DNA of 33,344 bases, taken from the NCBI GenBank assembly GCA_024763245.1, contig JANTFW010000013.1, positions 1 through 33,344 of the forward strand. Direction: 5' to 3'. The stretch comes from Flavobacteriaceae bacterium. Its GTDB lineage: Bacteria > Bacteroidota > Bacteroidia > Flavobacteriales > Flavobacteriaceae. A model generated the notes under the pieces. The model was not told the DNA's origin. It made no database searches and saw nothing but the letters and a program-made list of their open reading frames with translations. Both the position numbers and the translations under genes were made by a program. Below, piece after piece: positions 6,601 through 24,673 of the stretch (position 1 is the first letter of the stretch; each line of letters begins with the position of its first letter).

Positions 6601-6919
6601 TGGTGATGGCGGTCAACTCATCAGTTGGTCTATCTCTATTTGTGGTGGGGTAACCGTAGGTGTTAATGACTATTTAGTAAGCCGTTTGGTGAAACTATAT
6701 CCTAATCCAACAAGTGGTCTTCTCCATATTAATAATCAAGAACAAGTAGATATCCATATATATGATGTACTAGGAAAACAACTAGAGAGCAGTTCTTTAG
6801 AAACCGGAACAAATAGTATTGATTTATCATACTTTACCGCTGGTATATATTTCGTGAAAGTACGTCTATTTAGCAATGGTCAAGAAGGGGTTAAAACCTA
6901 TAGAATCATCAAGCAATAA
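3629..6919 (+). CDS. Reprolysin-like metallopeptidase with P-domain and T9SS sorting domain
   Basis: A large exported zinc peptidase (1096 aa). A signal peptide (about 1-23, ending TNAQ) precedes a propeptide-like region. The metzincin zinc motif HEMGHQFGGYH lies at 357-367 and is followed by a Met-turn-like SIMGY around Met391. Cysteines cluster at about 318-323 and 371. Then come a PKD-like Ig region (about 435-520), further beta-rich modules, a fibronectin III-like module (about 775-860), a proprotein-convertase P-domain (about 865-1005; starts CNTIAATDVP, carries HTWDSDLDITLTAPDGT) and a type A T9SS sorting domain (about 1017-1096; LYPNPTSG, GIYFVKV). The protein should be secreted or held on the surface after CTD cleavage. 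P-domains are best known from serine convertases but do occur on flavobacterial metallopeptidases. It stands alone, divergent from folB and convergent with ribF. Confidence 0.92.
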   Translation: MKNKYLLIIFAAILLFSNRQTNAQNTTQLWTKAGTEKTENLKKVHRSSHPKTFDLYKLNIDALKNRLANAPLRQAARTSTTIISFPMANGKLEKFSVFESPIMHPDLAAKFPMIKTYAAQGIDDPTATMRFSITQFGLHTMTLSGKHSAHYIDPYSKNGDYYMVYDRKSLQDDDSWMDFECLTEEGYHIDPSSTSQLDRNDTNDQKLRTYRLAQTCTAEYGNIFAGTGTDAQKKANIQAQMTITINRVNEIYERDLAITLEFIANNDLLIYYGDVNADPWNGEYNTKTQEVISTTLDDESLYDIGHNFNTSGGGNAGCLSCVCIDAAPPYTADSKGRGMTGRSDPTGDPFDIDYVAHEMGHQFGGYHTMNTCSRSGNGMTEVEPASGSSIMGYAGICPTNVQMNSDAHFNYVNIRDISANVQPGGNSTCGAQTNLANNPPTADAGNDYTIPKRTAYVLEGTATDPDGMASLTYNWSENDPEQSPGSAEPQSSYAVGPLYRAILPTTSPKRYLPKLSDVLAGNLTPTWEVTPSVARTLDFSFIVRDNFAGGGQTAADLMTVTVDGTAGPFTVSSQSTAAAWNAGDNQTITWDVAGTNSGAVNTPNVDIFLIIDDGASIVPVVSNVANNGSYTISVPTGYTTNNARVMVKGHNNIFYAVSTGTISIQDSEFVMNFTTTGIDSCVPDDATYTFTYNTFNGFNETTTFSATGNPAGSTVSFSPSQATTDGTSVTVTVSGITSSMLGNHTINVVGTSNSDTKNVDVSLQIYNDSFDMISLTSPTNTAAGIISPVTLDWTAISNTQNYTVQVATDMAFTNIVENASVSTNSYQTGVLNVNTEYFWRVMPTNLCGSGNYSSVFSFTTANIACNTIAATDVPQNIGPNGGTITNSVINFTDDLSISEVIVSINLTHTWDSDLDITLTAPDGTTTIDLSTANGSSGDNYTDTVFDDDAAQSITAGSAPFTGTFQPEQPLSTFDGLSSSGDWTLSITDNANGDGGQLISWSISICGGVTVGVNDYLVSRLVKLYPNPTSGLLHINNQEQVDIHIYDVLGKQLESSSLETGTNSIDLSYFTAGIYFVKVRLFSNGQEGVKTYRIIKQ

Positions 6920-10076: not shown

Positions 10077-10149
10077 GGTACCTTAGCTCAGTTGGTAGAG
10101 CATCGGACTGAAAATCCGTGTGTCCGCAGTTCGAATCTGCGAGGTACCA
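10077..10149 (+). tRNA. tRNA-Phe (anticodon GAA)
   Basis: A 73-base cloverleaf: acceptor GGTACCT/AGGTACC with discriminator A, D arm GCTC-AGTTGGTA-GAGC, anticodon loop CTGAAAA (anticodon GAA), and T arm CGCAG-TTCGAAT-CTGCG. The outermost pair of the anticodon stem is a T/T mismatch. CCA is not encoded. It marks the left border of the accessory locus. Confidence 0.95.
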
Positions 10150-10157
10150 CTTCAAAT

Positions 10158-10339: not shown

Positions 10340-10888
10340 ATGGCTACTACCAAAAATAAACATACAGATTCTATTTCTTTGGAATTGCTTTGGGAACAAT
10401 TTCTAAGCGGTAATATGCCTGCTTTTAGAAAAATCTATGAAGTAAATTATCAGCCTTTATACACCTTTGGGTTAAAATACCTATCCCCTGATGAAGTAGA
10501 AGATTGTATCCAGAATTTATTTCTTTATATTTTACAGCACAGAACGTCAATTGCAAAGGTGCAAAATGTAAAATCCTATTTATTTATTAGTTATAAAAAT
10601 CAAATCACTAAGACGATTAAAGCTAATAAATTTATTTTTGAACAAATCAGTGCTAACCTTAATATCGAACAAAACTCCTACTCCAAAGAAAAAATCCTTT
10701 CTGAAGTGGGTAAATTTTTGCAGAAATTAAGCCCTAGAGAAAATGAAATAGTTCACTTAAAATACTATCAAAATTTTAAAAATATTGAAATTGCCAATTC
10801 CCTAGGGCTAGAATACCAAACGGTTAGAAACACCCTCCATAATGCCCTTAACAAGCTCCGTAAATTTCCCTTACAAAGTACTTATTAA
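10340..10888 (+). CDS. ECF RNA polymerase sigma factor (FecI-like)
   Basis: An extracytoplasmic-function sigma-70 of 182 aa that should direct RNA polymerase to the promoter(s) of the adjoining SusC/SusD locus. Region 2 spans about 20-85 (PAFRKIYEVNYQPLYTFGLK, then EVEDCIQNLFLYILQ, where the DCIQ/DxxQ motif typical of Bacteroidota ECFs is visible). Region 4 spans about 125-178 (LSPRENEIVHLKYYQNFKN, then a helix-turn-helix EIANSLGLEYQTVRNTLHNA). Regions 1 and 3 are absent, as normal for ECFs. The FecR-type anti-sigma gene begins 87 bases downstream, which strongly suggests a cell-surface signalling pair. Confidence 0.93.
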   Translation: MATTKNKHTDSISLELLWEQFLSGNMPAFRKIYEVNYQPLYTFGLKYLSPDEVEDCIQNLFLYILQHRTSIAKVQNVKSYLFISYKNQITKTIKANKFIFEQISANLNIEQNSYSKEKILSEVGKFLQKLSPRENEIVHLKYYQNFKNIEIANSLGLEYQTVRNTLHNALNKLRKFPLQSTY

Positions 10889-10975
10889 AACTTTTCTTTA
10901 CTTTTTTCTTTTTTAACAGTTTTTAATTAGTACAAAACAAGATTTTATACTCTTTATTATAAACAGGCTGTTTTA

Positions 10976-12016
10976 ATGATAAATAAGGACAACATTCATT
11001 CTGAACATATACAACAAAGCTATATTAAACTTCTGGAGGAATCAAATGTAGATTTACACAAAAAGACAAATCCATTTTCCTCTAAAAACATTCTTGTTTA
11101 TAGTGGCTTATTTTTATTTATTGCTTCGATAGTAGTAGCATTTCTTGGCTATTCAAATTCTTCTTCAACTGATATTTTCAAAGATCAACTAGTAGCTACA
11201 CACTACAATACAAATCAAATTCTGCTAGAAACACAATCAGGAGTTTTTTATCAAATAACTAATAATACCGATAAAAAATGGATGGCAACAGATGGCGTCT
11301 TTGTAACTGTCACTAACAAAACGCTAAGCCTTACCACTACAGTACCTTTAGCAAAAGACCAAATTGCTTACTACAGCTTATGGATACCGGATAACAAAAC
11401 ATATACGGTGATTAGCCCTGATGGGACAAAGGTGCTACTAAACTCCAATTCAAAATTAACTTTCAGTAATAGCAGAAATACGTCTAAAACACATGCCATT
11501 TTAGAAGGAGAAGCCTATTTTGACGTAGCTCATAATCCGGATAAGCCCTATCTTATTAGAGCTTCGGAAATGAATATAGAAGTCTTTGGTACTTCATTTA
11601 ATGTCAATAATAAGAACCCAAAAGACAAAACAAGCCTGGCTTTAGTAAAAGGATCTGTTAGAATACGAAAAAATAATAATGAAAGTGTATTTATCAAACC
11701 CGGAGAAGAAGCGGTGCTTAAAGAAAAACAACTCCTGATTTCTTCAGCAAACTTTGCTAAAATTTTATCATGGACATCCAATCAGCTCTATTTTAGTGAT
11801 GAAACTTTGGGAAGCATTACCCAAAAAATTGGGGCTTGGTACAATGTCGATTTTATTATTAAGAATCCCACACTAAGAAATCTTCGCTTTACAGGGAGTA
11901 GTCATAAAGAAGATGGTCTTATACATTTTCTACAAAAACTACAATATACCGAAGGAATACACTATCAAATAACCAATAACAAAATCATACTTGATAAAAA
12001 AGCAAATAACAATTAA
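10976..12016 (+). CDS. FecR-family anti-sigma factor
   Basis: Inner-membrane anti-sigma regulator (346 aa) that should hold the ECF sigma until it receives a signal from the outer-membrane SusC. It has a cytoplasmic N-terminal segment of about 37 residues, one transmembrane helix at about 38-59 (NILVYSGLFLFIASIVVAFL), a periplasmic FecR domain (about 140-232, with the signature LEGEAYFDVAHNPDKPYLI and VFGTSFNV), and a C-terminal DUF4974/STN-like domain (about 266-340). The cytoplasmic part is short compared with many FecR proteins. The SusC gene starts 23 bases after the stop, so sigma, anti-sigma and transporter may share a transcript. Confidence 0.93.
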   Translation: MINKDNIHSEHIQQSYIKLLEESNVDLHKKTNPFSSKNILVYSGLFLFIASIVVAFLGYSNSSSTDIFKDQLVATHYNTNQILLETQSGVFYQITNNTDKKWMATDGVFVTVTNKTLSLTTTVPLAKDQIAYYSLWIPDNKTYTVISPDGTKVLLNSNSKLTFSNSRNTSKTHAILEGEAYFDVAHNPDKPYLIRASEMNIEVFGTSFNVNNKNPKDKTSLALVKGSVRIRKNNNESVFIKPGEEAVLKEKQLLISSANFAKILSWTSNQLYFSDETLGSITQKIGAWYNVDFIIKNPTLRNLRFTGSSHKEDGLIHFLQKLQYTEGIHYQITNNKIILDKKANNN

Positions 12017-12039
12017 CCATAATAAATTTTGAAACAATT

Positions 12040-15000
12040 ATGAATACTAACCTCAGTCAATGGAATTTTGAAAAAATAAGAACGCTAATAGTTCTTACTA
12101 TTCTTGTTTCATTAACAACGATTTATAGTTTTGCTGCAACTAAGAGTTTGCATAAAACTATCTTCAGTCAAAATACTGAACTTACAATTACCCAAGAATT
12201 AAGTATTAAACAGCTTTTTAATGTTATAGCTAAAAAAACAAACTATCAGTTCTTTTATAGTTCCAACATTAAGGAGCTTAACAAGAAAGTCCAAATACAA
12301 GCGGTAAATGCCTCCGTAGAAACTATTCTACAAAAAGCGTTTAAAAACACCTCTTTGGAATATAGCATTAATGGAAACGATATCCTTGTTAGAAATAAAA
12401 ATATTCCAATTCTTAAAAAGCAAAAAGACAAAATACAACAACAAGCCAATGTGGTAACAGGAACCGTAGAAGATGATACCCATATGCCATTGCCCGGCGT
12501 ATCTATTCTTGTTAAAGGGACCAACAAAGGAACCACTACTGATTTTGATGGAAACTACTCCATAGAGGTTGCAAAAGGATCGGTTTTAGTGTTTTCATAC
12601 CTAGGTTTTGAAGATCAATCTATTAAGGTAGAAGATCAAAAAGTAATAAATGTTTCTATGCGTAGTGCCTCAAACTTACTTGACGAGGTGATCATTGCAG
12701 GGGTTGCTTCAGGAACCTCAAAAAAGAAAATGTCTGTATCGGTTTCTAAAGTAAAAGCAGATGATATTACACTCGCACCTCAATCATCTGTATCGTCTGC
12801 TTTATCAGGAAAAGTTGCCGGTGTTAATATCACTTCTCTTAATGGATCTCCCGGTTCAGGAGCAAGCATTACTTTAAGGGGTGCCACCAGTCTTACCGGA
12901 AATCAAGCCCCGATGATTTTAATGGACGGGGTTATTATGCAAGGTTCTTTAGCCGATATTAATGTCGATGATGTAGAATCTATGGAAGTGGTTAAAGGAG
13001 CTGCAGCATCTGCGTTATACGGGTCAAAAGCCGGAAACGGTGTTATTGTAATTACCTCAAAAAGAGGGAAAAAACAAAGTGAGGGTAAGGCTTCTATTAC
13101 CATAAGAAGTCGTTATGAAATGCAACAAGTAGCCAAATATTTGGAATTATCTCAATCGCACCCTTATGAGTTGTCACCGGACTGGTTAGATGTAGACACC
13201 TATACTAAATATAACAATGTAACCTACCCCTCTGATTACGTAACAGGTTGGGATCCAAGAATTATTGGCAATAGAGTTGTAAAACCAGATGCTTATATGG
13301 ATCTCCCTTATAGAGTTAACAATGACTTGCAAAAATCTATGTTTACAAACGGGTCTTCAAACACCAATTATATTAGTCTTGGCTACAACAATGAAAAACT
13401 AAATATTTTTTCTTCCTTCGAAAACAACTCCGATAAAGGTATTGTGGTAGAAACCGGTGGATATCACCGAAAAAGTTTACGCGCTAATATTGATTACCAT
13501 TTTACAGATAAAATAAGCCTTTCCTTAAGTAATAATTTAATTGAGACTAACAATAACTTTATGGGTGGAGGAACCGGCTCGTTTTTTGAAGTATTAATGA
13601 TGGAACCGGATGTAGATCTCTTTAAAAGAAATCCTGATGGTCAAAAATATAATTATTTTCCTAATAACTGGAATACCATAGTTGCCAATCCTTTATATGA
13701 CCTATGGAGAAAACAAAGTAATTCGGCTAAAACCAGATACTTAGGAAGTTATAAATTTAAATGGAATCTAACCGATTGGGTAAGTTTTGATGCCTCTTAC
13801 GCTTTGGAAAGTCAACATTACTTAAGTACCAAAATGACACCGTTGGGAACCTATGTCGGTATGCAAACTAATACAGACACAAATGAGATTACACCCATTC
13901 AATCACAGTATATATTTACAAAATATAACTCTACTATCTTTAATCAGAATGTTCGTGCTACTGCCAATTTTACTAAGTCTTGGGAGCAGCTTGATTTTAA
14001 AGGGAAATTAAGTTATTTATTAGAAGACAACCATTTCGATAGTGAAAGTACAACAGCTGATGATTATCTAGAAAAAATTAGAGCTATTAATTACTTTGCC
14101 ATTGCCTCATTTGTCTATAAAGACCGTTATATATTTGATGGACTCTTTCGCTATGACGGTTCTTCACTGTTTGGAGCCAATGAAAGGTGGCAACCTTATT
14201 TTAGGGTTTCGGCAGCCTATAGAATTAGTAAAGATGTTGAAATACCCGGTATAGAAGAATTGAAACTAAGAGCAGCTTATGGAACATCGGGACAACGACC
14301 TATTTTTGCCGCTCAATATGAAACTTTTAGTGAAAACAATGGGGTATTAACTAAAGCAACACTTGGAAATGAAAATTTAAAACCTTCACATTCAACCGAG
14401 ATGGAATTAGGTTTGGATGCCTCTTTCTTAAAGCTATTTACACTTGAGGCTACGTATTCTCATACCCTTACCGAAGATCAATTTATCAAATCGCCTCTTG
14501 CAGCTCCTTTTGGAGGATTTAATTACCAATGGGCAAATGTGGGTTCTCTAGAATCTAAAACCATAGAAGGTGCTCTTAGAGCATCTATACTTAAAGAAAA
14601 GAATATCACTTGGAATATGGGAGTTACTTTTGATAGAACACGTTCTAAAATTACCAAATTAAATATTCCCGATTATAGTACAGGACCAAGAAATACCTTT
14701 AAAATAGAAGATGGGGGCGAGTACGGTATTATGTATGGTGTTGATTTTGTACGAACACTAGATCAAATGGCAGCACAGCTACCTGATGGGGAAAGTATCA
14801 GCGATTATTCCGTTAACGTAGATGGGGTAGTCGTAAAAACTGCCGACATTGGAACCACAAACGAAAGAGCTTTCCATTTACTCGATGAAAATGGCAATAA
14901 TAAAAATGTTGTAATAGGTAATATCAATCCTAACTTTAGAATGGGACTTAACACAACCTTTACCTATAAAAATTTCTCTCTCTATACCTTATGGAAATGG

Positions 15001-15387
15001 AAAAATGGTGGCGATATTTATAATGGAACAGCCCAATACTTAGTTAGGGATTTACGACATCCTATGATGGATCAAATCCATACGAAACCGGAAAATAAAA
15101 AAACCGTAAACTATTATCAAAGTTTATATGATGCACAAGCATTAAATGGCTTTTGGGTAGAAGACGGGTCTTATGTACGACTAAATGAGGCTTCATTATA
15201 CTATAATGTTTCTTTAGAGAATCGTGCCATAAAATCATTAAAAGTCGGATTAGTCGGTAAAAATTTATACACTTTTACAAACTATACCGGTTATGATCCT
15301 GAAGCAGGATACAGTGGTTTTATTTTTGATAATTACGGTTATCCTAATTTTAGAAACTTCGCCTTATCGGTAGAAGCCAAATTTTAA
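12040..15387 (+). CDS. SusC/RagA-family TonB-linked outer-membrane transporter with STN domain
   Basis: TonB-dependent transporter of 1115 aa. Order of domains: a signal anchor (about 12-32); an STN signalling domain (about 48-120; SIKQLFNVIAKKTNYQFFYS and ending NDILVRNK); a carboxypeptidase-regulatory-like domain (about 138-207; VTGTVEDD, TTTDFDGNYSIEV); a TonB-box-like DEVIIAG (215-221); the plug (about 228-345; PMILMDGVIMQ, VESMEVVKGAAASALYGSKA); and a long beta barrel ending in a C-terminal aromatic strand (SVEAKF). The STN domain is what lets such transporters talk to a FecR, matching the genes upstream. It should form a lidded complex with the SusD protein encoded 18 bases downstream and import oligomers, probably peptides given the linked protease. 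Confidence 0.95.
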   Translation: MNTNLSQWNFEKIRTLIVLTILVSLTTIYSFAATKSLHKTIFSQNTELTITQELSIKQLFNVIAKKTNYQFFYSSNIKELNKKVQIQAVNASVETILQKAFKNTSLEYSINGNDILVRNKNIPILKKQKDKIQQQANVVTGTVEDDTHMPLPGVSILVKGTNKGTTTDFDGNYSIEVAKGSVLVFSYLGFEDQSIKVEDQKVINVSMRSASNLLDEVIIAGVASGTSKKKMSVSVSKVKADDITLAPQSSVSSALSGKVAGVNITSLNGSPGSGASITLRGATSLTGNQAPMILMDGVIMQGSLADINVDDVESMEVVKGAAASALYGSKAGNGVIVITSKRGKKQSEGKASITIRSRYEMQQVAKYLELSQSHPYELSPDWLDVDTYTKYNNVTYPSDYVTGWDPRIIGNRVVKPDAYMDLPYRVNNDLQKSMFTNGSSNTNYISLGYNNEKLNIFSSFENNSDKGIVVETGGYHRKSLRANIDYHFTDKISLSLSNNLIETNNNFMGGGTGSFFEVLMMEPDVDLFKRNPDGQKYNYFPNNWNTIVANPLYDLWRKQSNSAKTRYLGSYKFKWNLTDWVSFDASYALESQHYLSTKMTPLGTYVGMQTNTDTNEITPIQSQYIFTKYNSTIFNQNVRATANFTKSWEQLDFKGKLSYLLEDNHFDSESTTADDYLEKIRAINYFAIASFVYKDRYIFDGLFRYDGSSLFGANERWQPYFRVSAAYRISKDVEIPGIEELKLRAAYGTSGQRPIFAAQYETFSENNGVLTKATLGNENLKPSHSTEMELGLDASFLKLFTLEATYSHTLTEDQFIKSPLAAPFGGFNYQWANVGSLESKTIEGALRASILKEKNITWNMGVTFDRTRSKITKLNIPDYSTGPRNTFKIEDGGEYGIMYGVDFVRTLDQMAAQLPDGESISDYSVNVDGVVVKTADIGTTNERAFHLLDENGNNKNVVIGNINPNFRMGLNTTFTYKNFSLYTLWKWKNGGDIYNGTAQYLVRDLRHPMMDQIHTKPENKKTVNYYQSLYDAQALNGFWVEDGSYVRLNEASLYYNVSLENRAIKSLKVGLVGKNLYTFTNYTGYDPEAGYSGFIFDNYGYPNFRNFALSVEAKF

Positions 15388-15405
15388 TACTAAACACTAT
15401 TACTA

Positions 15406-16902
15406 ATGAAAACAATATATAAACTTATCTTTATTATCTTGATTGCCACTACTTTTGTTACGTGTGTAGATTTAGATATTGAAAACACTAACGATCCCGA
15501 TACCGAAGAGGTGTTGTCAACTGCTGAAGGCGTTAAAGATCTAGCAGGAGGCCTATTTAATAAATGGTTTAACTCGGAACAGCATAATTACGGATCACCC
15601 GGTCCAGCTATGTGGGTTATGGCCGATTGGGGAACAGTAACCTTTGCAAACTATGCTACTAAAGACATGTCCGAAGAACCACGGATCTTTATGAATAATA
15701 CTTCTTCGTATGGTTATCATGCAACCATCAGAAATTTTTGGAGAAATATGTACAGTGTGATTACCTCTGCTAATGATGTAATAAGAGCCATTGATGGTGG
15801 CGTTGAAATTGGTGATAACGGTGATGAAACTATGATGGTAAAAGGAATGGCCTATTTTATGCAAGGCCTAGGGAATGGATATATAGGTCTCGTATATGAT
15901 CAAGGTTTTCCTTCCGATGAGACAACCAATTATGAAACACTGGAAGTTTCACCTTACAGCACCTCTATCTCTATGGCCATTTCACAACTTGAAAAAGCTA
16001 TTGAAATATTTGATAATAACACCTTTATCTTGCCTCAAGAATGGATGAATGGTAGTTATAGCAATACCTATATGTCGCAACTAGCTCATTCGTTTATTGC
16101 CCGACTTATGGTGTACAGCGCCCGAAACACAACAGAATCTGATGCGATAGATTGGCAAGCGGTTCTTACTCATGCTCAAGCTGGTATAACTACTGATTTT
16201 GCTATACAAGGTGATGGAAATATCAGTAATAGAAAATGGATGTCTTGGTACAAATATTATATGGCACGACCATCTTGGGGAAAAGTAGATATGAGAGTTG
16301 TACATATGTTAGATAATAATATTCCGGCCAATTGGCCCGAAGGTGGCATCTCAGAATTACCTAATGATGGTATTATCAATTCTCCTGATTTAAGGGTCTT
16401 TACCGATTTTCAATATGATGCAGCAAACAATCGTCCCGAAAGAGGATTATATCGTTGGTCTACCTATCGTTATGCTCGTTTTGATTCCTATATCAATAAT
16501 TTATTTTTTGCTCCCGTGGTGATGATGCGTAAAGCAGAAAACGATTTGTTTATTGCAGAAGCCTTTGCAAGGCTACATCAATACGATAATGCTGCCGCTG
16601 TCATTAACGCTGGGACACGAACAACACGTGGATTTTTGCCTGCTATTTCAAATGATCCTGACGAAGTTAACAATGCCATTTTATATGAACGTACTATTGA
16701 GCTTCCACTAACAGGAATGGGTATTGAATACTTTGATATGAGACGTAACGGCCTATTACAAGATGGTTCTTTATTACATTTTCCAATACCTGCGCAGCAA
16801 TTAGAGATTATGTTAATGCCTCTTTATACTTTTGGAGGAATAAATCCTCAATACGGAGTGCCTAATCAAGATGTTTCCATAAACGGTTGGTATACTCCTT
16901 AA
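15406..16902 (+). CDS. SusD/RagB-family surface nutrient-binding lipoprotein
   Basis: A substrate-capturing lid protein for the SusC partner (498 aa). A lipoprotein signal ends TTFVTC with Cys20. The following acidic stretch (DLDIENTNDPDTEE) fits the flavobacterial lipoprotein export signal for surface display. SusD-type features include the N-terminal aromatic-rich segment (ADWGTVTFAN), TPR-like helices (ISMAISQLEKAIEIF, AFARLHQYDNAAAVINAG) and the C-terminal ERTIELPLTGMGIEYFDMRR with FPIPAQQLE. It lies between SusC and a LamG lipoprotein in one operon. The bound ligand cannot be read from sequence. Confidence 0.93.
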   Translation: MKTIYKLIFIILIATTFVTCVDLDIENTNDPDTEEVLSTAEGVKDLAGGLFNKWFNSEQHNYGSPGPAMWVMADWGTVTFANYATKDMSEEPRIFMNNTSSYGYHATIRNFWRNMYSVITSANDVIRAIDGGVEIGDNGDETMMVKGMAYFMQGLGNGYIGLVYDQGFPSDETTNYETLEVSPYSTSISMAISQLEKAIEIFDNNTFILPQEWMNGSYSNTYMSQLAHSFIARLMVYSARNTTESDAIDWQAVLTHAQAGITTDFAIQGDGNISNRKWMSWYKYYMARPSWGKVDMRVVHMLDNNIPANWPEGGISELPNDGIINSPDLRVFTDFQYDAANNRPERGLYRWSTYRYARFDSYINNLFFAPVVMMRKAENDLFIAEAFARLHQYDNAAAVINAGTRTTRGFLPAISNDPDEVNNAILYERTIELPLTGMGIEYFDMRRNGLLQDGSLLHFPIPAQQLEIMLMPLYTFGGINPQYGVPNQDVSINGWYTP

Positions 16903-16936
16903 TCATTTTATTATTACAATTACAAAAACACACAAA

Positions 16937-17827
16937 ATGAAAACGTATAAATTAATTCTACTAACTTTACTATTGGGAGTACTAGGCACATCTTGTACTG
17001 AAGAAGAACTACCTACTTATCCCGGACAAATAATTATTCATGGCTCAACCTATCTCAATATGCCGGGAACAGACACTAACAATACTAATATGAGAATGTA
17101 TGCTTTTAGTGGTAGCCACGTCAATGACCTAAGCTCTCTTCCTGCTGAAGATTGGACCTACGAATTGTGGATAAAAGTAGATCCGGATGCGCTTATAGGA
17201 GATAAAAATGCTGAAAGTGGCTTTTATGCCGGTGGTGCAAGTATCTCTGAACGTCGCCATAATTTTGAACTTTATTTAATAGATGATGACGATGCCGATT
17301 ATGCCATAAAATATGGAAAATTAAGAGATGGCGATGATTTACAAGATGCCTCTATGCAATCGGACCAATCTGAAATTAACTTACATTTTAACGAATGGGT
17401 ACACGTTGCCATTTCACGATCTTCTGAAGATGGAATAGCTAAATTCTACATTAATGGAACTTTAATAGATAGTAGTGATGACCCTGTTTGGATTCAACCG
17501 GTTAATGATACTTGGCTAGACTTTAACTATATGTACCGTGGTGGTAGCATGAATTTCTTTAAAGGCTCTATGGATAATATTAGAGTATCAAAAGTAGATC
17601 GTTATCCAACCGAGTTTGAACCCAACCGATTACTACCCTATCCATTACAAAATGATGGTACCACATTGCTTCAATTAAATCTTGACAACCATTTAACACC
17701 CTTTAGTCCTCCTAATGATTTTGATAAACTAGAAATTAGAGGACTTTACGATTACTATATTAAAATACATAATACTAACACTTGGACTAGTGAAGATGAC
17801 ACCTATTTACCCTTAGGTGATTATTAA
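16937..17827 (+). CDS. LamG (concanavalin A-like) domain surface lipoprotein
   Basis: A 296-aa lipoprotein: the signal ends LGTSC with Cys20, then TEEELP, an acidic start suited to surface export. The mature part is one LamG/concanavalin A-like jelly roll (about 30-240) with the family landmarks WTYELWIKV, EWVHVAISRS, FYINGTLID and GSMDNIRVSKVDRYPTEFEP. No catalytic motif is visible. By position, directly after SusC/SusD, it fits a surface glycan- or protein-binding accessory lipoprotein (the SusE/SusF slot). Its closing segment RVSKVDRYPTEFEPN resembles that of the LamG module in the next gene, suggesting shared ancestry. Confidence 0.85.
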   Translation: MKTYKLILLTLLLGVLGTSCTEEELPTYPGQIIIHGSTYLNMPGTDTNNTNMRMYAFSGSHVNDLSSLPAEDWTYELWIKVDPDALIGDKNAESGFYAGGASISERRHNFELYLIDDDDADYAIKYGKLRDGDDLQDASMQSDQSEINLHFNEWVHVAISRSSEDGIAKFYINGTLIDSSDDPVWIQPVNDTWLDFNYMYRGGSMNFFKGSMDNIRVSKVDRYPTEFEPNRLLPYPLQNDGTTLLQLNLDNHLTPFSPPNDFDKLEIRGLYDYYIKIHNTNTWTSEDDTYLPLGDY

Positions 17828-17856
17828 TTCATTATTTCTATTCTAACTCCAAAATT

Positions 17857-20199
17857 ATGATTTCAATCAATAACAAAACAACGAAAAGAATACTTCTACC
17901 CTTTTTCTTACTTATCGGTTTTCTGTTACAAGCTCAAACTGATAAACAAGATATGGCTAAGTATGTTTCCAATTTCTATTATCAAAATTTTGGAGAAATT
18001 AAAACCGTCAAAAATTATTATCTATTAGATTCGGAACAAGAGATTAAAGAGTATGCCTTTAATTTTAAAGAAGGGGGATATATCATTATCCGAGATGAAT
18101 TTCCAAACTATACCGTTTTAGGAATTATTCCAAAAGGAAACTTTAGCCTTAATAATAACCATTTTCTGGGTAATAGTACTGATAAGGCGCAGTTTTATGA
18201 TACTGAATATCCTTTAAATAGAGATGCCTTACCAACGGCAACTACTGCTTCTAGAATAACTGATGATACGGTAGAACCCTTCTTAACCGATTTATGGGGT
18301 GGTGTTAATTGTTTTGATGATCAAGATAATATGGTATACCCTACCAATTATTATACACCTTACCACTGTTCACCGGGTTGTGTTGCCATTTCAAATTCCC
18401 AAATATTACATTATTATGAATGGCCATCAATCGGGGTTGGTAGCAATGTATATTCCGAGAATTATAACGGTTCATTATACCGTCATTCCGCATTTTTCGA
18501 TGAAACACCTTATGATTGGGATCATATGCTGGATAATTATTACAATATTCCTTCGACTGATCAAGAACAAAGAGCTGTTGGTAAATTATTGTACGATGTA
18601 GGTGTTTCTGTAGAGATGGATTACGAGCCTAGTGGTTCAACTAATAATCTTAATAATGTACCTTTTGTTCTTGAAAACTATTTTCGTTTTTCCGGTCATT
18701 ATGAAGAGGCATCGTGGAGCCCTTTCTGGAGTCGTTTGTACACCAGCATGCAACAACAACGCCCTGTACCTGTAGCCGTAGAAGCTACAGAAACAGGAGA
18801 TGGTCATGTATTTGTTGCCAATGGTTATAAGGTAATTAACGGAAACCCTTATTATTATATTAACTGGGGATGGTGGAATGTGGGTCCAACCTATAATGGA
18901 TGGTACTATTTACAAGGATGGAATAGTGGAACTGCCGGTTATAACACAATAATTGGGGCTATTTTTGATATGCTTCCTGAACCTGAAATTACAACAATTA
19001 CACCTACCGGAACAGGAGATGATTTTGAAATACAATGGGAGGTAGCACAACACTTAAACTGGAGTGAGTTTACCTTAGAACAAAAAGTAGATTATGGCTC
19101 TTGGGAAGAAGTGGCTAGTGGTATTACCAATCAAAACTATACCATTACTAATCCAACGGGCAGTGTGTATCAGTTTAGAGTAAAAGCAAAATCTGAAGGA
19201 AGCTATTATGCTAACTCTTGGTCTGAAGTGGCTATATACAGTGTATCAGGATCTTATAACGGTTTTGTTCAATTTGAAGGTAGCCAATATGCCTATGCTA
19301 AACAAACCCCCGATTATGATATTCGTTTTACCAATGATTATACATTTGAAACTTGGATTAACGTTGGCACAAACAATCAAACAGCTGATATCATTTTAGA
19401 TCAAAATAATGTTTTTACACTACGCTTAGATGAGGTTACTGCTAGTGATTATTCGGTACTATTTAAATCATATACCAATACCAGTACCTCATTAAATTCC
19501 AATCAATCCGGCAGTAAGTTACTGACTGATCATTGGCATCATATCGCAGTATCTAAATCGGGAACAACAACCCGTTTATTTGTAGATGGGGAAGTAAGAG
19601 ATAGCTATACGGGTTCTAATTTAAACTTGAGTCTCTCTAATAATCCTTTGAATATTGGTGAAATGTATCATGGATCTTACTCGAATCGAATTGTGGGAAA
19701 AATGGATCAAATGCGTATTTCAGATATCGGTCGATATACAACTAATTTTGCCCCCGATAAAGAAACCGATTTTGTAATGGATGCCAATACGATCTCCTAT
19801 TTTAAGTTTCAAGATGTACATCGTAAACGATTTAAAGATGAAGCGTATAACCTAAGTGTACGGGTGTCTAACAGTTCAGGGTATGTCACTTGGAGTTTTA
19901 CCGGTGTTAACAATAGTTTATCTCTTGAAGATCAAGCGCTATTAAACTCCGTATTACAGGTGTATCCTAATCCTACTTCAGATTATTTAAATATCCAATA
20001 TTCTGATAATGATAGGTTTAATAGTACTGATTTCTCATTGGAAATCTACGACAGCACAGGTAAAATTATTATACATAATGAACCGGATGCTTTTGGTAAC
20101 CCAAGTAGAATCAATATTGAAAATATCAATCCCGGTACCTACTTTATTATCGTTAAAGGAAAAAACTTTACAGCTAGTAAAAAATTTATTAAACAATAA
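17857..20199 (+). CDS. C10-family (streptopain-like) cysteine peptidase with LamG and T9SS domains
   Basis: The only evident enzyme of the locus (780 aa). Signal peptide about 1-27; an N-terminal propeptide with a Spi/streptopain inhibitor-like fold (about 28-130); the C10 catalytic domain (about 138-372) with nucleophile Cys175 in SPGCVAISNSQILHYYEWP, His317 in DGHVFVANGY and Trp338 in INWGWW. The usual WGQ motif before the active site reads WGG (147-149). A fibronectin III-like module (about 377-465), a LamG module (about 468-660; YTFETWI, HWHHIAVSKSG, GKMDQMRISDIGRY) and a type A T9SS sorting domain (about 703-780; VYPNPTSDYLNI, GTYFIIVKG) follow. It should be exported as a zymogen through the T9SS and cleave extracellular protein near the SusC/SusD complex. 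Confidence 0.92.
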   Translation: MISINNKTTKRILLPFFLLIGFLLQAQTDKQDMAKYVSNFYYQNFGEIKTVKNYYLLDSEQEIKEYAFNFKEGGYIIIRDEFPNYTVLGIIPKGNFSLNNNHFLGNSTDKAQFYDTEYPLNRDALPTATTASRITDDTVEPFLTDLWGGVNCFDDQDNMVYPTNYYTPYHCSPGCVAISNSQILHYYEWPSIGVGSNVYSENYNGSLYRHSAFFDETPYDWDHMLDNYYNIPSTDQEQRAVGKLLYDVGVSVEMDYEPSGSTNNLNNVPFVLENYFRFSGHYEEASWSPFWSRLYTSMQQQRPVPVAVEATETGDGHVFVANGYKVINGNPYYYINWGWWNVGPTYNGWYYLQGWNSGTAGYNTIIGAIFDMLPEPEITTITPTGTGDDFEIQWEVAQHLNWSEFTLEQKVDYGSWEEVASGITNQNYTITNPTGSVYQFRVKAKSEGSYYANSWSEVAIYSVSGSYNGFVQFEGSQYAYAKQTPDYDIRFTNDYTFETWINVGTNNQTADIILDQNNVFTLRLDEVTASDYSVLFKSYTNTSTSLNSNQSGSKLLTDHWHHIAVSKSGTTTRLFVDGEVRDSYTGSNLNLSLSNNPLNIGEMYHGSYSNRIVGKMDQMRISDIGRYTTNFAPDKETDFVMDANTISYFKFQDVHRKRFKDEAYNLSVRVSNSSGYVTWSFTGVNNSLSLEDQALLNSVLQVYPNPTSDYLNIQYSDNDRFNSTDFSLEIYDSTGKIIIHNEPDAFGNPSRINIENINPGTYFIIVKGKNFTASKKFIKQ

Positions 20200-20223
20200 T
20201 TTCTAATTTTAAAATCAAATATT

Positions 20224-21261
20224 ATGAAAAAACAATTACTTTTAGTATTAACATTTGCTTTGTTTGCACAAAGTTTTGTGTTTGCTCAGGACAATTGCCT
20301 TAAATTCGATGCCGTCAACAGCAGGGTTCAATACCCAAATGATGCTACATTAGATATAATGAATGGCGCTACAGATTATACGATTGAAGCATGGATAAAG
20401 CCTACTTCTACGAGTATCCATAATAAAGCGATTATAAAGCGTTATTATCAATATGCTCTTTTTATGTATCAAGATGCTAACAGACGTGTCTATTTTACAC
20501 ATTACAACAATAGTGGTCCTAGTGACTATGTAAACTCGACATACAATGTAATTAACATTAACGAATGGAATCATATTGTAGTTATTAATAATGCGGCGGA
20601 GGACACTTGTAAACTATATGTAAATGGTGTAGATGTAACTGCCGATTCCTCTGGAAATCCAATTACACACGCCGCTTTACCATTAGAAGCAGATCCGGAT
20701 GCTTATAGTGCGACCTACCATCCTAATTTTTATATTGGCTATAGTGGTACTTCAGGTATACCGGATGCATACATTGATAAAGTTCGTGTAAAAAATGTAG
20801 CAGAAGATCCCGCTAATTTACAAACTGCTATTACTGATGCCCCTTATACAAGTGACGCTAACACCTCAGTTCTCATGAATCTTAACGAAGGAACCGGCGA
20901 TGTAACTCTTAACGAAGCCTCAGGAAGTAATGCCAATCTTGAATGTACCGGTGGCTGTGCCGAACTTCCTACATGGGAAACAATTGCCAATACGTTATCA
21001 TTTGCAGAGAATAACACTACGGATTTCTCTATTTTCCCAAACCCTGTTGATAGTGAATTCTTTACTATTCAAGCAAGAAATAATGAAACTATTCAAGAAG
21101 TTGAATTAGTTGATATTTTAGGAAAATCGGTTAAAAAAGTAGTTTTCAACACAACTGTAAATGCTGAAAATATTAATATTGACAAATTAACTGGTGGCAT
21201 TTATATTGTAAAAATAAAAACAGATGTTGGTATCGGTACACAAAAAATTGTAATCGAATAA
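20224..21261 (+). CDS. Secreted LamG-domain protein with T9SS sorting domain
   Basis: A 345-aa exported protein: signal peptide about 1-21 (ending FVFAQ), a LamG/concanavalin A-like domain (about 24-235; YTIEAWIKPT, EWNHIVVINN, KLYVNGVDV, AYIDKVRVKNV), a short Cys pair region (ECTGGCAE) and a type A T9SS sorting domain (about 268-345; IFPNPVDSEFF, VDILGKSVKK, GGIYIVKIK). No catalytic residues can be pointed out. As the last gene of the SusC/SusD operon it probably binds the same target as the protease, either held at the surface or released. A terminator follows. Confidence 0.87.
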   Translation: MKKQLLLVLTFALFAQSFVFAQDNCLKFDAVNSRVQYPNDATLDIMNGATDYTIEAWIKPTSTSIHNKAIIKRYYQYALFMYQDANRRVYFTHYNNSGPSDYVNSTYNVININEWNHIVVINNAAEDTCKLYVNGVDVTADSSGNPITHAALPLEADPDAYSATYHPNFYIGYSGTSGIPDAYIDKVRVKNVAEDPANLQTAITDAPYTSDANTSVLMNLNEGTGDVTLNEASGSNANLECTGGCAELPTWETIANTLSFAENNTTDFSIFPNPVDSEFFTIQARNNETIQEVELVDILGKSVKKVVFNTTVNAENINIDKLTGGIYIVKIKTDVGIGTQKIVIE

Positions 21262-21280: not shown

Positions 21281-21320
21281 AAAAAGCCATAAGCATACCT
21301 AATGCTTATGACTTTTTTTT
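21281..21320. terminator. Bidirectional terminator ending the SusC/SusD locus
   Basis: A 9-bp inverted repeat (21288-21296 with 21302-21310) extends through one mismatch into flanking A and T tracts. It lies between the rightward LamG gene and the leftward amidotransferase-like gene, so it can serve both strands. Confidence 0.8.
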
Positions 21321-21332
21321 TGTAATAAATTG

Positions 21333-22472
21333 CTATTTATCCAAAAAACGGAGTGCATTTTCTATAGCCACTTTAGCTTCAGAATCTTGCTCAACGCTCA
21401 AACTTGATTTTAAATCTTTTACGGCATCTGTATATTCTGCTTTTGCCAATAAAGATGCAGCATTAGCTCTTACTTTCGCATTTTTATCACGAAGTAAGCC
21501 TACATTCCATCGCACTGCAGGCCTAGAACGTAAAGCAAAAAGGGTGTCCATAGCTTGTAGTTTAGCTATTTCATCGTTTGACACCAACTTCCACCACATG
21601 CTTTTCTCAAATTGTGAAGTAGCTTTATCAAATAAAATAGGTTTATCATACCTTTCGGGATTAATCCATTTGGCATTATAAGGAATCGTATTGGTTTTTG
21701 TTACCCATCGAGCCATCCTAGGAATCATCCAGCGCATACCTGGTGTAGATTCAGCATGTCCGGCTATACCAAATATTCTACCCTTTCCCAGTTCTTCATT
21801 ATAAATAAATACTTTTCCGGGGGTTATATTTGATGGATATCCTTTGTGTGGATGAATATCGGTTACATATTGTGCCAATTCCATATATGTTTTTGAAGTA
21901 CCTAAAGATTCCATCACAGGACCGTCATAGTATTGTAAAAATTGCGGTTTATCTTTTAACTCCGGAAAAATAGCAAGTCCATTTTCTCCCAGTTTAAATT
22001 CAACCAAACCTCTACCTCTATCATAATGGGGTCTATCTATGTGTTTAACACTTGCAAACTGTAAGCTGGGGTAACCCTCAGTTTGACAAAGCATATAAGC
22101 CCCGGCACAAATACCTATAAGTCCTTTGCCCTCTTCTTTTACAAATTTTTCGATTTTCTCTTTACCTAAATCCCCTAGATTATTCAACTGTTTGCTACCA
22201 CTTCCTCCAGGGAAAATAAAGGCATCTAATTCGTCTAACTCCCCCGACATTATATCTGATGCACTAACCGCAATAGCTTTTATATTCTTATCAATTTTTA
22301 AGGCTTCAATGGTTTCTATAACACTCACGGCACCGGCACCATTACCGTCAAACACACCTACTGAAATTAAATTTTCATTTTTTTTAGCCGGTGGAACCAC
22401 CGTTTTATCTTGACAGGAACCAAGGGATAAAAAAAGGCTTAATATCAGTAATTTGCTCACAATATACTTCAT
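21333..22472 (-). CDS. BPL-N / class I glutamine amidotransferase-like lipoprotein
   Basis: A 379-aa lipoprotein (signal ends LSLGSC, Cys20). The main domain (about 35-260) has the class I glutamine-amidotransferase-like fold of the BPL-N family: FIFPGGSGSKQ (85-95), the nucleophile elbow GICAGAYM with Cys122, and GHAEST with His239 and Glu241, so a complete Cys-His-Glu triad appears present. The C-terminal part (about 295-379) looks like helical HEAT-type repeats (RDKNAKVRANAASLLAKAEY). It is the last gene of a three-gene minus-strand operon, 11 bases after the Ntn hydrolase. Its location outside the cytoplasm, away from ATP and synthetase partners, points to simple amide hydrolysis or a binding role. 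Substrate unknown. Confidence 0.8.
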   Translation of the reverse strand: MKYIVSKLLILSLFLSLGSCQDKTVVPPAKKNENLISVGVFDGNGAGAVSVIETIEALKIDKNIKAIAVSASDIMSGELDELDAFIFPGGSGSKQLNNLGDLGKEKIEKFVKEEGKGLIGICAGAYMLCQTEGYPSLQFASVKHIDRPHYDRGRGLVEFKLGENGLAIFPELKDKPQFLQYYDGPVMESLGTSKTYMELAQYVTDIHPHKGYPSNITPGKVFIYNEELGKGRIFGIAGHAESTPGMRWMIPRMARWVTKTNTIPYNAKWINPERYDKPILFDKATSQFEKSMWWKLVSNDEIAKLQAMDTLFALRSRPAVRWNVGLLRDKNAKVRANAASLLAKAEYTDAVKDLKSSLSVEQDSEAKVAIENALRFLDK

Positions 22473-22483
22473 TTTCTTATCGT

Positions 22484-23731
22484 TTACATTTTAATTGAAA
22501 ATTCTTTTTCATAAGCATCCTTAATAAAGGAATCTACCCATTTATAAAATTCTTTTATATCCGCTGTGTTACTTTTACCTTCTTTTTCCCATCTACCAAT
22601 CATTTTATAGGTCTTGCCATATATTATATTTTCATATTTTCTAATAATTTGAGCTATTCCTGTTCCTTGATTATCAGCCAATGCATTCACATCTAAATAC
22701 GAATGTTCTGCTTTTCCCCAACGTATATTAACAATCCTTTCATTTTTGAGTTGTAAGGCTGCATGACAAATAGGAGAATCTTTTAAAGAGGTATCATAAC
22801 GTACCGATTTTGGTAAATCGACCTTTCCGTTTACCCAAGTAGGAATCATAATTGAAGCCAGAGGAAATCCTACATTCGACCAAAGTGTTGCCAAATTAGG
22901 GTTTTGTCCTTTCATAACACCCTCTATCACAACAGAAGAAGAAGAACCTGTTCTAGGAATATAATCTCTAAAATGTGCATATTGTGGATGGTTTTCAGGT
23001 AAATTACCATATAAATCAAATAGATCTTGATTGGTAAGCGAATGCTTTAAACTTTTAGCCACATTCTGTTGTATATATTGTGCCGTTAAACCCGTAGTCG
23101 ATGCTTTTTCATAAAATAATTTACTGGCTGTATTATAACGAATATATCCCCCACTTTCATTACCTAATTTTCCGGTATGCGAATAATTTGTTCTTATGAT
23201 ATATCCAAAAGGGGCAACTCTAGGGTCATTGGCATCAAACTTTACAAAGCCTTCATTGTTAAACTCGTAATAGGCGGCACCTCCCTCAGCATCAATAACA
23301 CCAAAATTGGCTTCTAAACCTGTGGGTCTTGGCATCGCATTTAAATAGGCTTCAAAATCTGCTAATGTTCTACAACTTGCCAATGCCTCTTTCATAGCTC
23401 TTCCTTCCAGACCGGTAAGTTTTCCATCATTATCTAAATTTAGATTATACGATGCAGAATTCATAATAGCAAAACCAACACTATTCAGCCCAATCCAGAT
23501 GCTTTTTCCCTTGGTATCTTTTGAATTTACCAATCCAACATAGGAATATTTACCCTCATTAAAGTAACGAAGTATATTATTTATGGACCAAGTATCTCTA
23601 TTTTTCCAAAGCATTGGCTTTCCATCTTTAGTATATTTACCTGAAATAACAGCAGTTGTACAAGCCTGCGTTGGTATTGTAAATAATAAGGTAATTATAA
23701 ACGTAATTCTGATAATAAATTTGTTTTTCAT
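22484..23731 (-). CDS. Ntn-hydrolase, carcinine hydrolase / isopenicillin-N acyltransferase type
   Basis: A 415-aa N-terminal-nucleophile amide hydrolase (C45 / choloylglycine hydrolase clan). The signal peptide ends PTQA and the next residue is Cys24 (CTTAVISG), so signal peptidase cleavage itself would expose the catalytic N-terminal cysteine. Arg45-Asp46 in WKNRDTW match the conserved R-D of the clan, and the IGLNSVGFAIMN segment supplies the usual strand after it. The TQAC context lacks the Leu/Val/Ile at -3 of a good lipobox, but lipidation, which would block the nucleophile, cannot be fully excluded. Second gene of the glutaminase operon, 27 bases after glsA. Candidate substrates are N-acyl amines, bile-salt-like or beta-lactam-like amides; undetermined. 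Confidence 0.83.
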   Translation of the reverse strand: MKNKFIIRITFIITLLFTIPTQACTTAVISGKYTKDGKPMLWKNRDTWSINNILRYFNEGKYSYVGLVNSKDTKGKSIWIGLNSVGFAIMNSASYNLNLDNDGKLTGLEGRAMKEALASCRTLADFEAYLNAMPRPTGLEANFGVIDAEGGAAYYEFNNEGFVKFDANDPRVAPFGYIIRTNYSHTGKLGNESGGYIRYNTASKLFYEKASTTGLTAQYIQQNVAKSLKHSLTNQDLFDLYGNLPENHPQYAHFRDYIPRTGSSSSVVIEGVMKGQNPNLATLWSNVGFPLASIMIPTWVNGKVDLPKSVRYDTSLKDSPICHAALQLKNERIVNIRWGKAEHSYLDVNALADNQGTGIAQIIRKYENIIYGKTYKMIGRWEKEGKSNTADIKEFYKWVDSFIKDAYEKEFSIKM

Positions 23732-23758
23732 TTCTGTATTGCTTATTGATTATTTATA

Positions 23759-24673
23759 TTAAAAAATAGAGGAATCTGTAGCCGAAGTCAGTTGCTCTAA
23801 CAGCTTCATTCCTTTATATGAATTTCCTTTTTTATTGAGTTTTGGGCTCCACACAGCCACGCTATATATGCCGGGATGCACAGCCACTATGCCACCGCCT
23901 ACCCCACTCTTTCCAGGTAAGCCCACTTTAAACGCAAACTCTCCGGCTTCATCATAAAAGCCACAAGTTTGCATAATAGCATTTATTCGTTTTGTTTTAC
24001 TTAAAGATAAAATCCTTTCTTTTGTTTTAGGGACAATTCCACCATTGGCTAAAAACAAAAAGCTTGTCGCTAAGGTTTCTACTGACATCTCTATAGCACA
24101 TACATGAAAATAAAAATCTAAAACCTCTTCGACCGGATTTTTTAAATTTCCAAATGATTTAATCAAATAAGCTATGGCCGAATTGGTATAACCATTTTTG
24201 GCTTCCGATTCTGCTATCTTTTCATTATAACTAATCGTATCATCTACGGCTAATTTCCTTACAAATCCCAAAAAATCATCTTTAGGTTTTGGTAAACTAT
24301 CTATTAATATATCACATAAGACTAAGGCTCCGGCGTTGATAAGTGGATTTCTGGGAATTCCTTTTTCATATTCTAATTGTACTAAGGAATTAAAAGAATC
24401 GCCAGATGGTTCATATCCCATTCTTTTCCATAACAATTCACCATGAATTCCATAGGATTTAGCCAACAGTAAAACTTTAGAAATACTTTGAATAGAAAAT
24501 TTCTCATGACAACTCCCTACACCACATCCTTCTTGGTCTATGGGTTTAATAAAAACACCATACTTATCGGGATTAATTTTTGCTAATTCAGGAATGTAAC
24601 TCGCTACATTACCCGGATCGTTCTTTTCCAGAATATCATAACTAATTCTTTCTATAATATCGCAATAATTCAC
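23759..24673 (-). CDS. glsA: Glutaminase
   Basis: Hydrolyses L-glutamine to glutamate and ammonia; cytoplasmic (no signal peptide), 304 aa, typical for bacterial glutaminase A. The serine-based SxxK active site is at Ser63-Ile-Ser-Lys66 in FSIQSISKV. Other family segments are NPLINAGAL (near 114-122), the Glu/Asn/Tyr-rich ESEAKNGYTNSAIAYL, and the C-terminal GLPGKSGVGGGIVAV loop. First gene of a minus-strand operon with two exported amide hydrolase family proteins. Outside such operons glsA is usually a lone gene. Function of the enzyme secure; purpose of the operon inferred. Confidence 0.94.
   Translation of the reverse strand: MNYCDIIERISYDILEKNDPGNVASYIPELAKINPDKYGVFIKPIDQEGCGVGSCHEKFSIQSISKVLLLAKSYGIHGELLWKRMGYEPSGDSFNSLVQLEYEKGIPRNPLINAGALVLCDILIDSLPKPKDDFLGFVRKLAVDDTISYNEKIAESEAKNGYTNSAIAYLIKSFGNLKNPVEEVLDFYFHVCAIEMSVETLATSFLFLANGGIVPKTKERILSLSKTKRINAIMQTCGFYDEAGEFAFKVGLPGKSGVGGGIVAVHPGIYSVAVWSPKLNKKGNSYKGMKLLEQLTSATDSSIF

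Follow-up and report, generated by a model that had tools for sequence, protein, structure and literature searches.

The window analysed here, a stretch of 33,344 nucleotides from a Flavobacteriaceae bacterium (assembly GCA_024763245.1, contig JANTFW010000013.1), carries a gene cassette that is probably an inducible, self-contained locus for the utilisation of protein (or glycoprotein), with a SusCD gate at its centre, as judged from its predicted genes and their neighbours. Use of protein or glycoprotein had been proposed by an initial annotation of the DNA, a reading now supported by a conserved core free of CAZymes and by the genes for glutaminase, C45-like hydrolase and M14 carboxypeptidase that are linked to it. 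The locus consists of two convergent operons with the following features:

10340..10888, plus strand: ECF-type sigma factor, operon gene 1 (Pfam Sigma70_r4_2, 3.5e-9)
10976..12016, plus strand: FecR-type anti-sigma factor (Pfam FecR_C 4.3e-19, FecR 8.7e-16)
12040..15387, plus strand: SusC outer-membrane TonB-dependent transporter with an N-terminal STN domain (TIGR04056 E 7.8e-180, 600 bits; STN 1.9e-10)
15406..16902, plus strand: SusD lid lipoprotein (Pfam SusD_RagB, PF07980, 3e-5; lipobox ..FVT/CVDLD)
16937..17827, plus strand: LamG surface lipoprotein in the SusE/SGBP position (Laminin_G_3 3.1e-13; lipobox, then acidic CTEEE)
17857..20199, plus strand: secreted C10 cysteine peptidase (Peptidase_C10, PF01640, E 1.8e-37; Laminin_G_3; Por_Secre_tail)
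20224..21261, plus strand: secreted LamG protein with a T9SS tail (Laminin_G_3 5.7e-15, Por_Secre_tail 5.6e-13)
21288..21310, plus strand: terminator-like hairpin and T run between the convergent operons (9-pair stem, TTTTTTTT tail), of a kind no more frequent across the region than in shuffled sequence
21333..22472, minus strand: exported BPL_N/class-I glutamine-amidotransferase-like protein, convergent operon gene 3 (Pfam BPL_N 2.1e-9)
22484..23731, minus strand: exported C45-like N-terminal-nucleophile amide hydrolase, convergent operon gene 2 (NF040521 C45_proenzyme 7.5e-13)
23759..24673, minus strand: glutaminase of cytoplasmic type, convergent operon gene 1 (NF002133 3.5e-127, above cut-off)

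The seven codirectional genes reported by the initial annotation were all recovered as open reading frames, with short intergenic gaps of 87, 23, 18, 34, 29 and 24 bp in order, and Pfam or NCBIfam matches agree with every assignment, including a sigma-70 region 4 match (Pfam) for the sigma gene. The SusC protein combines STN, CarbopepD_reg_2, Plug and TIGR04056 domains (Pfam/NCBIfam). Both members of the tandem SusC and SusD pair score above their curated cut-offs (600 bits against 368 for TIGR04056, and 24.3 against 23.1 for PF07980), and by these family memberships the locus is a SusCD-type nutrient uptake locus. The domain search found no CAZyme among the seven operon genes, as had been claimed. 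The description of the locus as a cysteine protease plus three LamG proteins stands in that all of these are present, but it counted the protease twice, since the protease is itself one of the three LamG proteins. The limits of 10340-21261 were drawn too narrowly; judged by its recurrent linkage, the convergent operon at 21333-24673 belongs to the locus. A sigma-70 promoter scan was uninformative, with 68 sites found against 68.4 expected. The ECF gene is preceded, at a distance of 190 bp, by a tRNA-Phe gene (10077-10150, plus strand), which is a possible insertion point of the cassette. Outside the locus, the same window encodes a reprolysin-like (M12B) metallopeptidase with a P-domain and a T9SS tail (3629-6919, plus strand) and an S8 subtilase (318-2027, minus strand).

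The host genome is a MAG of 2.28 Mb in 142 contigs, 91% complete. Scanning the genome showed that its sole SusC above the TIGR04056 cut-off and its sole PF07980 SusD match are those of the cassette, and its sole C10 peptidase is likewise the cassette protein. The host is therefore a clean case, in which the SusCD pair is not one glycan paralogue among many. In addition, the two secreted LamG proteins require a T9SS, and the genome carries one (SprA, 2484 bits in a profile scan, together with about 40 type A sorting tails), so that the TIGR04183 C-terminal domain and the T9SS expected of type A cargo occur in the same genome.

By searching 299 Flavobacteriaceae genomes with SusD, full cassettes were found in L019, from the same genus, and in L020, from the complete 4.0-Mb genome of another genus; a SusD-profile scan of named genomes gave 15 loci, one of them on the same contig as L019. 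The cassette is uncommon, being present in 2 other genomes of the 299 and, by the LamG lipoprotein profile, in 2 of the 396 genomes of an order sample. SusC, SusD and C10 follow each other in the same order in 17/17 distinct loci (the window locus and 16 others from Polaribacter, Muricauda/Allomuricauda and MAGs), and the LamG lipoprotein stands between SusD and C10 in all except L048, from which it is missing. The conserved synteny that the initial annotation had proposed to look for across Flavobacteriaceae is thus present, and the recurrence of the core order in 16 other loci indicates that the seven-gene arrangement is not due to chance. ECF and FecR genes lie upstream of the core wherever the contig extends so far, except in L035, where no ECF gene was called. 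The LamG-T9SS gene is found in 12 of the 17 loci; the Muricauda-type loci either lack it or have an FnIII lipoprotein and a second C10 gene in its place, in L043 it is absent, and in L039 its place lies past the contig end. In the sister species, this gene is short (L019:12312-12800, 162 aa compared to 345) and is probably broken or affected by an assembly error. Pairwise distances among SusC, SusD, C10 and the LamG lipoprotein correlate (r 0.85-0.92), which implies that the core moves or is inherited as one unit.

Homologous loci containing CAZymes had been named in advance as evidence against the protein reading, and none of the 17 cores contains a CAZyme. Going by its predicted genes, the locus does not qualify as a PUL under the definition that asks for CAZymes co-located with SusCD. 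It is worth considering that an ordinary polysaccharide utilisation locus might keep its CAZymes elsewhere in the genome and use the protease as an accessory, since most SusCD pairs belong to glycan systems and distant CAZymes could serve it in a MAG that is split into 142 contigs and 91% complete. This is highly improbable, however, given that all 17 cores are CAZyme-free and that the only carbohydrate enzymes among the Pfam-scanned neighbours, a glycosyltransferase and a debranching-type hydrolase outside the core of L040, are absent at the same place in the sister loci L045 and L046. The more distant SusCD pairs L021-L033 (28-45% SusD identity) were rejected as members of the cassette, as none of them has C10 or LamG. 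These nearest other relatives (L022, L024, L025, L028, L029, L031 and L033, with the related L021, L023 and L030) mostly adjoin genes of 124, 158, 708 and 101 aa that, judging from their lengths and order, resemble rpsL-rpsG-fusA-rpsJ of the str operon; the searches recognised neither C10 nor CAZymes beside them, and they possibly represent a conserved flavobacterial SusCD of uncharacterised cargo.

The C10 protein consists, in order, of a signal peptide, a Spi-like propeptide, the C10 domain (aa 163-350), an FnIII-like domain, a LamG domain (483-623) and a T9SS type A tail (702-778). Its C10 domain scores 129.9 bits against a PF01640 cut-off of 26 and is homologous to, and aligns with, streptopain and interpain A. 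The catalytic residues C175, H317, N336 and W337 are invariant in the primary C10 proteins of all 17 loci. By PF01640 and by these Cys, His, Asn and Trp residues, the protein is a peptidase of family C10 with predicted activity, and the inactive C10 domain that the initial annotation had listed as a possible objection is contradicted by their invariance. In 13 of the 17 primary C10 proteins, about 160-174 residues precede the catalytic Cys and include the Spi-like propeptide, whereas L020, L036, L044 and L049 have only 65-66 residues there, which indicates that the propeptide has been lost; these four may be made active or controlled otherwise. Five loci have a second C10-LamG-T9SS protein, and the one examined, in L046, retains the catalytic residues. 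C10 occurs in 11 of the 299 Flavobacteriaceae genomes, and the three with the cassette have SusCD adjoining. No SusCD lies next to C10 in five other Flavobacteriaceae C10 neighbourhoods (a sixth, L088, has no C10 match in its open reading frames) or in 12 Bacteroidota C10 neighbourhoods, some of them short, so a general C10-SusCD linkage outside the cassette is unsupported. In several loci without the cassette (L085, L089, L092, L121, L122, L124 and L128), the direct neighbour of C10 is a gene for a short protein (about 155-190 aa), possibly a Spi-type inhibitor; no small gene of this size was seen beside the cassette C10.

The relationship to streptopain raises another reading, in which a streptopain-like surface C10 does damage to the proteins of a host or prey and SusCD serves chiefly for sensing. 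The virulence candidates of Tenacibaculum maritimum do include a T9SS C10 protease (PMC5561996). However, homology to streptopain identifies a protease and not virulence, and the linkage with a SusCD importer, glutaminase and M14 points to feeding. To our knowledge, none of the named carriers, Polaribacter and Muricauda/Allomuricauda, is a pathogen. A role in host or prey interaction is therefore improbable.

The linkage with amide hydrolases begins with the minus-strand operon at 21333-24673, in which the glutaminase, C45-like and BPL_N/GATase-like genes are separated by gaps of 27 and 11 bp. Glutaminase adjoins the cassette in 8/12 informative loci and in four arrangements, among them upstream in the same direction (L036, L040, L045 and L046), upstream and divergent (L043), and downstream and codirectional (L048). 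Similarly, the C45-like and BPL_N genes lie near the cassette in 5/13 loci and in three arrangements, being downstream and codirectional at L041, L043 and L048; the BPL_N/GATase-like gene, whose product has a GICAGAYM nucleophile elbow and C-terminal HEAT-like repeats, is kept with the cassette in L019, L041, L043 and L048. The C45-like gene occurs in 2 of the 299 Flavobacteriaceae genomes, both of the host's genus, and glutaminase in 43 of 100 genomes. The rough binomial chance of lying within 10 genes is 2e-8 for the C45-like gene (5/13) and 2e-18 for glutaminase (8/12); these figures overstate the linkage because some loci are close relatives, although the differing arrangements are still independent in kind. 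In addition, a secreted M14 zinc carboxypeptidase is encoded in 7/13 loci and in two positions, in the ECF/FecR interval in six and downstream in L043. Since L043 combines M14, glutaminase, C45-like and BPL_N genes, mutual exclusion of M14 and C45/BPL_N was rejected. L035 and L049, both well flanked, are without glutaminase, C45-like or M14 genes nearby.

The C45-like protein begins with a signal peptide followed by CTTAVISGKYTKDGKPMLWKNRD, and its Cys24, right behind the predicted signal peptide, does not vary among 5 orthologues; its AlphaFold model is poor (pLDDT 45) and was set aside, and no Pfam match was found for the protein. It scores 48.5 bits against the curated NF040521 cut-off of 85, and by this measure it is related to C45 and lies outside the curated family. 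Other orders of Bacteroidota commonly carry members of the C45-like family, in many different contexts (L069-L082 and L093-L104), and Pfam covers this family poorly. Phylum-wide, the gene is not cassette-specific: 16 other Bacteroidota genomes carry C45-like genes, and the cassette was in none of the 12 neighbourhoods examined. By family assignment, every enzyme of identifiable type that is repeatedly linked to the cassette hydrolyses amide bonds, and the presence of glutaminase, C45-like hydrolase and M14 carboxypeptidase among them lends weight to the protein reading.

The binding protein and the transporter bear on the nature of the cargo. The lipobox of the LamG lipoprotein is retained and is followed by acidic residues in many orthologues, which fits surface export in flavobacteria. 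Its AF2 model (pLDDT 70) has as its top PDB match 4dqa, a putative carbohydrate-binding PUL protein composed of DUF1735 and LamG3, followed by PAPP-A, pentraxins and laminin G. BT3986, a LamG lipoprotein of this fold, belongs to a high-mannose N-glycan PUL under ECF/anti-sigma control, and such PUL LamG lipoproteins bind sugars where tested (PMC11216935); the cassette cargo could thus be a glycan or glycopeptide. The closest solved SusC by sequence is, moreover, a glycan transporter, the dextran transporter 8aa4 of B. thetaiotaomicron (6e-59), ahead of RagA (1e-46). On these grounds, the locus might serve glycoproteins or proteoglycans, with LamG binding the sugar, C10 only freeing the glycan, and SusCD importing mainly glycan or glycopeptide. 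This is rather unlikely, as glycosidase, lyase, sulfatase and sugar-catabolic genes are absent from 17/17 cores, and the linked enzymes target amides and include a glutaminase whose linkage has no role in sugar catabolism. Going by its model, the LamG lipoprotein might dock to the sugar part of a glycoprotein.

Based on the results presented above, uptake of protein-derived peptides may proceed as follows. A proteinaceous substrate would be tethered by the LamG lipoprotein, and by the LamG modules that the two T9SS-secreted proteins carry, at the surface, where the T9SS-delivered C10 zymogen, which has its catalytic residues and a Spi-like propeptide, could cut it into peptides. SusD and SusC, assigned by family, would then take up these peptides using TonB energy. 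As in other members of its family, the STN domain of SusC may signal the presence of cargo to FecR, so that the ECF sigma factor is freed and the operon is upregulated. The exported C45-like and GATase-like proteins, and likewise the M14 carboxypeptidase in other loci, are placed here by their linkage and might trim the peptides in the periplasm, and finally the cytoplasmic glutaminase would convert released glutamine to glutamate and ammonium. More tentatively, the cassette could represent a distinct, horizontally shared SusCD class devoted to one kind of protein, with C10, LamG docking and a C45-like/M14/glutaminase chain, an amide-rich or N-capped substrate, and the role of sole SusCD in some hosts, the present one included.

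CAZymes are the usual guide to finding and interpreting SusCD loci, and in one flavobacterial study PULs were detected by CAZyme clusters (PMC6298971); a conserved, CAZyme-free and protease-bearing class is invisible to such an approach, and glycan use may be wrongly read from SusCD expression at sea. If the protein reading is true, Bacteroidota have, outside oral pathogens, a counterpart of PULs for feeding on protein that is regulated and encoded in an operon. The cassette is present in cultured Polaribacter and Muricauda, among them Polaribacter marinus MSW13 and Muricauda yonaguniensis 334s03, so the reading is testable there.

The combination of SusCD with peptidases is not new as an idea, since earlier work had already recorded peptidases close to SusCD in flavobacteria: they lie beside SusCD in Zunongwangia profunda (PMC2864250), and one mannose-rich flavobacterial PUL with peptidases was read as glycoprotein-directed (PMC6298971). 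In those marine loci, unlike the cassette, CAZymes are intermixed or are the defining feature. Literature searches returned no description of the C10-LamG-glutaminase/C45/M14 set, which is weak evidence, as subscription journals and preprints were outside their scope and many matches were off-topic. The catalytic domain and Spi-like propeptide are shared with streptopain, interpain A and the Bacteroides/Prevotella C10 proteases, whereas the cassette C10 adds FnIII-like, LamG and T9SS parts, stands in a SusCD operon and has lost its propeptide in four loci. The levan and dextran utilisomes of B. thetaiotaomicron likewise combine SusC, SusD, a surface binding lipoprotein and a surface enzyme, 8aa4 being the dextran SusC (PMC7618045), and PUL72 of the same species shares ECF/anti-sigma control and a LamG3 lipoprotein (PMC11216935); in contrast to these systems, the cassette is CAZyme-free and its enzyme is a T9SS-secreted protease rather than a lipoprotein glycoside hydrolase. 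The parallel with RagA/RagB drawn by the initial annotation does not extend to membership by sequence. Glycan SusCs are at least as close to the cassette SusC as RagA is, and the SusD profile of the cassette does not retrieve RagB; with the dextran SusC ranking ahead of RagA, a RagAB label is unjustified and was rejected. Further differences are that the protease is C10 and not C25 and is encoded in one operon with the gate, that control is by ECF/FecR/STN, and that LamG proteins are present. In a possible way of working, however, the parallel holds: RagAB and the gingipains of Porphyromonas gingivalis combine a SusCD-type gate with a T9SS-secreted cysteine protease that feeds it from a proteinaceous nutrient (PMC11817032), and the cassette, whose cargo is probably of the same nature, may do likewise.
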